Made by a program: the position numbers and the translations under genes. Source: Struthio camelus (taxonomy: Eukaryota > Chordata > Aves > Struthioniformes > Struthionidae). From it: a DNA stretch of 64,000 bases. The stretch spans positions 4,526,001-4,590,000 of the forward strand of contig NC_090951.1 in the NCBI RefSeq assembly GCF_040807025.1, in the 5' to 3' direction. This document shows positions 43,261 to 46,953 of the stretch, in pieces. A model generated the notes under the pieces. That model saw only the letters and a program-made list of their open reading frames with translations, made no database searches and was not told the origin of the DNA. Each line of letters begins with the position of its first letter. Positions within the stretch are counted from its first letter, which is position 1.

Positions 43261-43503
43261 GACGCGCGTCCAGCGCGGCGGCCGGGCGGTTGTCCCCGCT
43301 GGAAGGCGACGCGCGTCCCACGCGGCGGCCGGGCGGTTGTCCCCGCTGGAAGGCGACGCGCGTCCCACGCGGCGGCCGGGCGGTTGTCCCCGCTGGAAGG
43401 CGACGCGCGTCCCGCGCGGCGGCCGGGCGGTTGTCCCCGCTGGAAGGTGACGCGCGTCCCGCGCGGCGGCCGGGCGGTTGTCCCCGCTGGAAGGCGACGC
43501 GCG
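43261..43503. repeat. 47-bp minisatellite, 5.2 copies
   Basis: Units start at 43261, 43308, 43355, 43402 and 43449, with an 8-bp partial copy from 43496. Units are near-identical: unit 1 has GTCCAGCG, units 2-3 GTCCCACG and units 4-5 GTCCCGCG, and unit 4 ends in T instead of C. Each unit begins with the perfect palindrome GACGCGCGTC and is rich in CpG. Because 47 is not divisible by three, the array is open in several frames on both strands; these frames are not genes. It lies just upstream of the KLHL36 island in the head-to-head interval with COTL1. Confidence 0.97.
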
Positions 43504-45631: not shown

Positions 45632-45771
45632 TCCTCCTCCTTTTCTTTTCATTTTTTCCTTTTTTCTTTTTTCTCTTTTTTCCTTTTTTCTTTTTTCCTT
45701 TTTTTTCCCTTTTTTGTTTCCTTTTTTTTTCTTTTTTTTTTTTCCTTTTTTTTTTTCCTTTTTTTTCCCTT
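45632..45771. repeat. 140-bp homopyrimidine tract
   Basis: The plus strand is all C and T except for an A at 45651 and a G at 45716, giving uninterrupted pyrimidine runs of 64 and 55 nt. The pattern is CTTTT to CCTTTTTT, imperfectly repeated. It ends exactly where the GC-rich COTL1 promoter begins. On the minus strand it reads as a lysine-rich open frame, which is an artefact of the AAG/AAA repeats. Confidence 0.97.
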
Positions 45772-46303
45772 GCCGGTGCTGGAAGTCGAGCCCGGTAGGG
45801 GGAGATCGCTGCATCCGAAACGGCCGACAGGACGCCGAGGCGCCCGCGTGCAGCCGCGCACCGGCGGCGCCGGGGACCTGCCGCTGCCCCGAGTCCCCCC
45901 GCGGCTGCGCTGGCCCCGCTCCGTCCTTTGTGGGCTATTTTCTCAGCGGTTTTGCCCGGCTGGCCCGGCGCCAGCAGCGGGGCTGCCCGCCTGCCCCCCC
46001 CCCCCACCCGCTTCGTGCCGCCTCCCTCCTCCCCCAGCTGGCGGCGGCGGCGGCCGCCCCCGGCCGAGCCCCGGCGGGGCCGGGCGGGGGCGGGGCCGGG
46101 CGGCTGCGCGCTATTGGCGGCGGGGGCGGGGGCGGGGCGGGGCGGCGGCACGCCATTGGCGGGCGGGGCGGCGGGGGGGCGGGGCGGGGCGCAGCGGCGC
46201 GGGGCTCGGCGCTGCGCGGCGGCGCGCGGTGCTGCAGCAGCAGCAGCAGCGGCGGCCCCCAGCTCCGCGCCGCTCCGCGCCCCCCGCGCGGCCCGCCGCG
46301 CCC
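45772..46303 (+). promoter_or_regulatory. COTL1: CpG island promoter and 5' UTR of COTL1
   Basis: Very GC-rich sequence leads up to the COTL1 start codon. Two inverted CCAAT boxes (ATTGG at 46113-46117 and 46155-46159) each sit among GGGGCGGGG Sp1-type boxes, so the module looks duplicated about 42 bp apart. A (CAG)5 run at 46235-46249 and C-rich sequence follow, probably within the 5' UTR. There is no TATA box. The island continues through exon 1 to about 46480. Confidence 0.85.
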
Positions 46304-46380
46304 ATGGCCACCAAGATCGACAAGGAGGCCTGCCGGGAGGCGTACAACCTCGTCCGGGACGACGCCACCGCCGTTAACTG
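46304..46380 (+). CDS. COTL1: COTL1 exon 1 (coactosin-like protein, N terminus)
   Basis: COTL1 is a small ADF-homology protein that binds F-actin and 5-lipoxygenase in the cytoplasm. This exon encodes residues 1-25 and two bases of Trp26 (MATKIDKEAC to DDATAVN, then TG|G). The donor is TG|GTAGGT. The start follows from the exact match to the known COTL1 N terminus (MATKIDKEACR). The ATG has C at -3 and G at +4. Compared with the human protein as I recall it, residues 12, 21, 22 and 25 differ, including Asn25 where human has Ile. Exons 1 to 3 join to 106 codons without a frameshift. Confidence 0.96.
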
Positions 46381-46870
46381 GTAGGTGGCCCCCGGCCGGG
46401 CGCGGAGCAGCGGCGCCTCGGCACGGCGGCCGCGGACCGGGGGCTGCGGAGCGGCGGCTCGGCCCGCCGGGACGAGCGCTAGCGCTTTGTTGCCTCCTCC
46501 CTCCCCTCCCTGCCCTTCCCTTGCCAAGGGATGACTTTTAAATGCATCAACCCCCTTCTCCTCTTTTACCTTCCTAAAGGGTGACTTAAATACATCAATC
46601 CCTTTCTCCTCCTTTTCCTTCCCAAGGGGTGTCTTTTACATGCATCAATCCCTTTCTCCTCTTTTCCTTCCCAAACGATGACTTTTGAATACTCCAGTCC
46701 CCTTCTCTTTTCCCTTCCTAAAGGGTGACTGAAATACATTAATCCTCTTCTCCTCTTTTCCCTTCCCCAAAGGTGGCTTTCAAATACATCAAGCCTCTTC
46801 TCCTCTTTCCCCCCTCCTAAAGGGTGAATTTTAAATATATTCCCCTTCTCCTCTTCTCCTCCTCCTAAAG
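46381..46870 (+). other. COTL1: COTL1 intron 1 (490 bp)
   Basis: A short intron between TG|GTAGGT and CCTCCTAAAG|GGTGAC. Its first 100 bp continue the CpG island; the remainder is the tandem array described separately. Confidence 0.95.
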
Positions 46871-46893
46871 GGTGACCTTTAAGTACGATGGCT
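46511..46893 (+). repeat. Tandem array of the exon 2 splice-acceptor/exon-edge, about 8 units of 49 bp
   Basis: Each unit has a TTCTCCTCTTTTCCTTCC-like pyrimidine tract, then (TA)AAG, then a GGTGACTTTTAAATACATCAA-like segment. Positions equivalent to the first base of exon 2 are 46529, 46580, 46627, 46677, 46724, 46773, 46823 and 46871, so the spacing is 47-51 bp. The last is the real exon 2, which starts GGTGACCTTTAAGTAC. The array therefore ends inside coding sequence, and every intronic unit is a degenerate copy of the intron-exon boundary. Copies are diverged, so the array is not recent. Confidence 0.9.
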
Positions 46894-46953
46894 CCACAAT
46901 CGTCCCCGGAGACCAAGGCGTAGACTACGAAACCTTTACGAGGAAGTGCACAG
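46871..46953 (+). CDS. COTL1: COTL1 exon 2
   Basis: This 83-nt exon completes Trp26 and encodes residues 27-53 (VTFKYDGSTIVPG to RKCT), ending with one base of Asp54 before GTGAGC. The fold is the central sheet of the ADF-homology domain. The segment after VPG (DQGVDYETFTRK) differs from the human sequence as I recall it (EQGAEYQHFIQQ) at most positions, much more than the neighbouring exons do, but the frame and splice phases are intact. The first ~20 nt of the exon belong to the repeat unit that fills intron 1. Confidence 0.95.

Follow-up and report, generated by a model that had tools for sequence, protein, structure and literature searches.

A tandem array in intron 1 of COTL1 repeats the 3′ splice site and the start of exon 2

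Introduction

Junction minisatellites of lancelet genes have been described under the name of 'mirages' (PMC3087553, PMC3902484). According to the accessible parts of these two reports, BflGb6 carries tandem copies of an intron 3′ end and the 5′ part of exon 2 in units of 150-160 bp with 81-100% identity, many of which keep their splice signals and turn over in a minisatellite-like manner, with length differences between haplotypes and regular splicing backed by RT-PCR (PMC3087553, PMC3902484). Imperfect mirages are described, in the accessible part of the second report, for lancelet PGBD5 (PMC3902484). An array with the same type of copied segment, and likewise with splice signals kept in many copies and minisatellite-like unit turnover, is present in intron 1 of a vertebrate gene, COTL1. 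In contrast to BflGb6 as portrayed in those portions of the reports, the COTL1 units are 47-51 bp long and approximately 64-80% identical by two alignments, and the array is known from one assembly, in which it has a single match.

Two further systems show partial resemblance. NAGNAG and other close tandem acceptors, which lie a few nt apart and use one common tract, share with COTL1 the competition of 3′ splice sites at one exon, whereas each COTL1 acceptor has its own tract within a 48-nt unit. The minisatellite of IFI6 is said to provide multiple splice donor sites, as reportedly described by Turri in 1995. In the accessible part of a report on human IFI6 (also 6-16 or G1P3), the minisatellite repeat units act as donors, downstream units being used for variants (PMC4526556). 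As far as this part goes, IFI6 shares with COTL1 a minisatellite that sits at an exon-intron junction of a vertebrate gene and adds splice sites, but the added sites are donors, while in COTL1 they are acceptors whose upstream use would truncate the protein. Neither the COTL1 locus nor a vertebrate acceptor mirage was found in the open-licence literature, represented mostly by titles and the beginnings of abstracts. The first-pass annotation knew of no earlier description for COTL1, and none turned up in this literature; the kind of array, in contrast, is in print as the lancelet mirages.

Here we consider it likely that the 3′ splice junction of COTL1 was tandemly amplified into intron 1, that the copies are decaying and that splicing tolerates the array.

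Results and discussion

The COTL1 gene and its surroundings

The window, a 64-kb stretch of DNA (C10:4526001-4590000), belongs to a genome that was searched over 1.45 Gb in 262 contigs. The translated COTL1 exons 1-3 match a coactosin-like protein in PDB (1wm4; phmmer, 4.3e-58), and exon 3 matches Cofilin_ADF (PF00241) in Pfam; exons 1 and 2, each too short on its own, gave no Pfam match individually. A genome-wide search with the COTL1 protein returned three matches, all inside the COTL1 gene of the window. Searches for orthologues in IMG/VR and in GTDB contigs gave no relative, which is unsurprising for collections that contain no animals. On the forward strand, the coding part of exon 1 (MATKIDKEACREAYNLVRDDATAVN plus the TG of a Trp codon; 46304-46380) is followed by the 490-bp intron 1 (GTAGGT...CCTAAAG; 46381-46870) and by exon 2 (VTFKYDGSTIVPGDQGVDYETFTRKCT; 46871-46953), both exons being assigned by translation and the coactosin-like match in PDB.

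Three further features lie upstream of the start codon. The promoter region contains a 42-bp tandem duplication (46078-46187), whose copies carry ATTGGC, which we take to be an inverted CCAAT motif, beside GC boxes. Approximately 530 bp before this codon there is a T-rich tract of 131 bp (45641-45771) in which C residues are scattered, and a second, much younger, GC-rich minisatellite (43261-43503; period 47, 5.2 copies, 97% match) is located approximately 2.8 kb upstream of exon 1.

Units and periodicity of the array

Tandem-repeat finder (TRF) analysis identified an array in intron 1 at 46516-46886 with a period of 48, 7.6 copies and 74% matches. The self-identity at lag 48 was 0.51 over 46490-46893, compared with a maximum of 0.42 in 500 dinucleotide shuffles at lags of 30-109, and TRF detected an array with a period of 30-110 in none of 200 shuffles of the stretch. 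Together with the comparison to exon 2 given below, these results bear out the first-pass annotation, which had proposed a tandem array of the 3′ splice site and exon 2 edge with a periodicity near 49 bp.

Eight units can be anchored on the TG of a (G)TGAC motif at 46532, 46582, 46630, 46679, 46726, 46774, 46825 and 46873, giving spacings of 50, 48, 49, 47, 48, 51 and 48 nt, in agreement with the seven intronic units at 47-51 bp spacing counted previously. Each intronic unit comprises a pyrimidine tract, an acceptor remnant and a copy of the start of exon 2 over approximately 16 nt. All units lie on the forward strand: unit 1 (46500-46549) has a CAAG acceptor remnant with its AG at 46527-46528, unit 2 (46550-46599) has AAAG, unit 3 (46600-46647) CAAG, unit 4 (46648-46696) has lost its AG (AAAC), and units 5 (46697-46743), 6 (46744-46791) and 7 (46792-46842) have AAAG. 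Thus, the AG is kept in six of the seven intronic units (1, 2, 3, 5, 6 and 7), and the AAAG earlier ascribed to every unit was recovered in four (units 2, 5, 6 and 7) but not in units 1, 3 and 4. Unit 8 (46843-46890) contains the functional pyrimidine tract and acceptor and the start of exon 2; its AG at 46869-46870 ends the intron and exon 2 begins at 46871, so that the eighth unit is indeed the functional boundary, as had been stated.

The mean pairwise identity was 64% among units 1-7 in a MAFFT alignment and 80% among all eight units when end gaps were free, and the real value probably lies between the two. Unit 7 is the nearest to unit 8, the two agreeing at 24 of 28 positions in their intron part. 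The identity between units 2 and 5 is 89%, with a 2-nt deletion common to both, and a 110-nt stretch of the array is repeated 144 nt further on with 83% identity; as judged from the sequence, both observations fit an unequal exchange of blocks. Bird substitution rates are in the range of 1.5-3e-9. Combined with the 80% identity, these rates give an array age of approximately 40-80 million years, which is only a guess because the units exchange sequence with each other.

A whole-genome DNA search with the array, in which very common words were skipped, returned the array itself as its sole match; the copies elsewhere in the genome that characterize a dispersed satellite or transposable element were thus not found. 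Instead, the array consists of tandem units spanning an intron-exon boundary, several of them with a retained splice signal (the AG of the six intronic units listed above), and it displays turnover of the minisatellite type in the likeness of units 2 and 5 and in the 110-nt repeat, all of which are features of mirages.

Likeness of the units to the start of exon 2

Units 1-7 yield the consensus GGTGACTTTTAAATAC, compared with GGTGACCTTTAAGTAC at the start of exon 2. In a local alignment the two agree at 14 of 16 positions, followed by none of the next four (14/20 overall), and individual units show 11-12 matches over 14-16 nt. Hence, of the approximately 20 nt of exon 2 that the first-pass annotation considered to be repeated, about 16 nt are borne out and the last four are not. 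The 8-9 nt that follow TAC in the units (ATCAATCC) have no clear counterpart in either the exon or the intron, and the breakpoint of the duplication is therefore approximate.

In tests of the exon-like part by itself, the array and the exon edge stood out. At a threshold of at least 13 matches, its 15-nt core was found at five places on both strands of the window, namely units 1, 4, 6 and 7 and the exon edge, while 12 matches were reached by unit 3 and four window places outside the array. The score of the exon edge was equalled by 2 of 29,900 AG-anchored stretches from other loci, a control that excludes the five loci containing the COTL1 array itself. With up to three mismatches, a 23-nt consensus had six matches in the genome and its reversed control ten; three of the six, with two mismatches each, were unit 7, the exon edge and locus L095. 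This locus is the best of four short, scattered matches outside the array, and TRF found no array there. In contrast to these tests, when the entire unit was aligned locally with exon 2 and no anchor was set, 20 of 3,104 window stretches did as well or better because the CT-rich pyrimidine half matches other CT-rich DNA, which makes this a poor test of exon likeness.

Decoy acceptors and splicing

Acceptors were scored with a matrix fitted on 87 kinesin exon loci of the same genome, every one of which offered a candidate; the acceptors were model-chosen, so that the scores are rough. By this measure, units 2, 3, 5, 6 and 7 reach 10.1, 10.0, 11.3, 11.4 and 11.1, respectively, compared with 10.8 for the real acceptor, 13.5 for the exon 3 acceptor and only 4.8 for unit 1. 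The median of the model-chosen acceptors was 8.8, and 22 of 6,160 other intronic AGs attained the score of the real site. Five decoys thus equal the real acceptor by this measure, and any reason for passing over them would lie outside the local motif. The scores support the several near-equal acceptors of the first-pass annotation, according to which the spliceosome would have to select the last of them.

When exon 1 is joined to any one of the six AG-bearing intronic units, the reading frame meets a stop within intron-derived sequence, before exon 2 proper begins. The acceptor of unit 7 keeps the frame (48 nt), yet translation stops at the TAA of CCTAAAG, and three further upstream AGs, from 46482 on, also give stops when joined to exon 1. 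Transcripts that use an upstream acceptor would thus carry an early stop and be expected to be lost by nonsense-mediated decay.

The AG first downstream of the branch point is normally the one that is used. No other AG occurs in the 48 nt between the AGs of units 7 and 8, and all adenines apart from those of the acceptor are found 31-43 nt upstream of the real AG, within what is left of the exon copy in unit 7. Most likely, the real acceptor has its branch point in these 48 nt, and the exon-like part of unit 7, which begins at 46823, is its likely zone. If the first-AG rule holds, we predict a branch point inside a decayed exon copy; the real AG would then be the first one downstream of it.

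These properties could also be expected if the array had been retained as a splicing regulator, with decoys that slow or divert the removal of intron 1 and products with an early stop that tune the COTL1 level. The near-equal scores of five units (10.0-11.4 versus 10.8), the survival of the AG in six of seven units and the early stops that follow from all six upstream unit acceptors are consistent with such a role. However, the pyrimidine tracts showed no significant deficit of transversions relative to the exon-like parts (Fisher p 0.35), and neither constraint on the tracts nor its absence is therefore demonstrated; furthermore, unit 4 is without an AG, the unit 1 acceptor scores poorly, and lancelet mirages are reported, in the accessible parts of the publications, to leave regular splicing undisturbed (PMC3087553, PMC3902484). 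We regard a regulatory role as distinctly unlikely, and a decayed junction minisatellite that is tolerated by splicing is the most likely interpretation of the array.

Direction of copying and origin of the array

The start of exon 2 encodes VTFKYDG, which is identical in three of five aligned coactosin-like sequences from PDB and reads VTFRYDG in the other two. We take the aligned proteins to be those of human and mouse, the human protein having the identical residues. Because these residues are identical or one off in mammalian coactosin-like proteins, the start of exon 2 is considered to be old, and the intron therefore received copies of the exon start, in the direction from the junction into the intron. 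Among the two origins that had been left open by the first-pass annotation, this argues for amplification of the junction, as the exon start is older than the units.

The other origin, in which an intronic minisatellite existed beforehand and was recruited as the exon 2 edge, would account equally for the homology between repeat and exon edge, which is independent of the direction of copying, but it demands that an exon start far older than units still approximately 64-80% identical be derived from them. It is contradicted by the conserved VTFKYDG/VTFRYDG, and with the sequences taken to be mammalian as above, we reject it as highly improbable. Least probable of all is that the periodicity is a low-complexity accident of a CT-rich tract and the exon likeness a coincidence: the units are CT-rich and the whole-unit alignment has its 20 equal or better window matches, but the period signal was never reached in the 500 and 200 shuffles and the exon-like part, taken alone, leads to the array and to the edge of exon 2, so that this explanation is rejected by the shuffles, the 15-nt core, the 23-nt consensus and the AG-anchored control.

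Under amplification of the junction, a segment from the pyrimidine tract to approximately 16 nt or slightly more into exon 2 would have been tandemly duplicated, the first duplication probably by replication slippage. Unequal exchange may then have multiplied and reshuffled the units to give seven intronic copies, which now appear to be decaying. Splicing would tolerate the array, with the last unit yielding COTL1, and the array would have no selected role.

In the VTFKY codons, the unit consensus departs from the exon at two sites, and neither difference alters the encoded residue. Unit 7 shares T and A with the other units at these sites, where the exon has C and G. Since the unit nearest to unit 8 still has T and A, the silent changes probably took place in exon 2 itself and later than the formation of the array, as read from these two codons. 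In this case, related species should have the exon 2 codons ACT and AAA.

A second junction array in KIF22

As a control, 93 of 124 kinesin matches in the genome (30 + 60 + 3 loci) were examined for arrays reaching an exon, which was judged at the start of the match as a stand-in for the exact exon start. Three of the 93 loci (L005-L007) are near whole-domain matches, and two pairs (L022/L023 and L032/L033) each look like one gene present on both C40 and C41. A tandem array running to the match start was found at one of the 93 exon loci, L011. At five further loci out of 90 (L040, L072, L079, L081 and L085), an array with a period of at least 15 ends 19-104 nt upstream of the match start; four of these arrays have approximately two copies and that of L079 has 9.1 copies of 20 nt. 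The arrays at L072 and L081 might touch their exon, and L040 additionally has 33-66-bp arrays ending 240 nt upstream of its match.

The exon at L011 belongs to KIF22, with a match of 1.7e-41 to 6nje, the next best being another kinesin at 2.6e-25. Its array, which is covered by loci L011, L101 and L102 (C32:930178-932920, reverse strand), covers 2,743 bp of the 2,820-bp intron upstream of the exon and consists of units of approximately 72 bp (35 counted, 86% matches). The last 52 nt of the intron agree with the unit consensus at 47 positions; the real KIF22 acceptor is therefore a unit of the array. CAG occupies the acceptor place in 14 of the 35 units, and a donor-like GGGTGAG occurs 34 times in the array, the units resembling complete mini-introns with a 22-nt exon-like piece. 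After CAG, the units continue with CTTGTGGCTGTTCCCC, CTTATGGCTGTTCCCC or, most commonly, ATTCTGACTGTTCCCC, and the exon reads CTCGTAGACCTGTTCGCCCC. Among 6,000 CAG-anchored controls, 3, 13 and 62, respectively, aligned to the exon start as well as these unit types did, as did 2, 25 and 45 of 3,000 shuffled exons. The likeness fails an unanchored test, in which 84-134 of 2,000 shuffled exons were as good; its support comes from the anchored test. From these alignments, it is likely but not certain that the KIF22 units include a part of the exon. Thus, KIF22 resembles COTL1 in having units that extend across the acceptor up to the edge of the exon, but differs in its longer units, its 35 copies, its young age, the donor-like motif and the weaker likeness to the exon start.

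The KIF22 array is situated in a 20-kb region of a 4.8-Mb contig (C32:926000-945999) that is packed with minisatellites with periods of 18-242 bp and more, located in introns and between genes. Because C32 is full of minisatellites, its minisatellite-rich chromosome may be the cause of the KIF22 array. As a separate observation, C40 (70 Mb) and C41 (90 Mb) each carry kinesin and myosin matches of equal or near-equal score; from these matches only, we infer that the two may be sex chromosomes that have a region in common.

Implications

The COTL1 array belongs to a known kind, that of the lancelet mirages. As KIF22 has a similar array running to its exon, the control suggests that COTL1 is not alone in this genome, and mirages are perhaps not rare in it. 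The acceptor type of junction minisatellite, described in the literature searched for lancelets only, is thereby extended to a vertebrate, whose genome provides two cases. The COTL1 array may be datable, as decayed units may keep the older exon 2 codons ACT and AAA, and this conserved gene provides a natural experiment on how an acceptor is chosen, since five of its six AG-bearing junction copies have scores similar to that of the real acceptor in the same intron.

More speculatively, and with a small but appreciable chance of being correct, mirages may recur in this genome, with COTL1 as an old, decayed case and KIF22 as a young, long one, and at least some of them may be working multi-acceptor modules, in which exon-derived sequence supplies the branch-point zone for the acceptor that follows. 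If this were true, copy number would determine the proportion of transcripts lost to nonsense-mediated decay, or donor-bearing units, as in KIF22, would offer ready-made extra introns.
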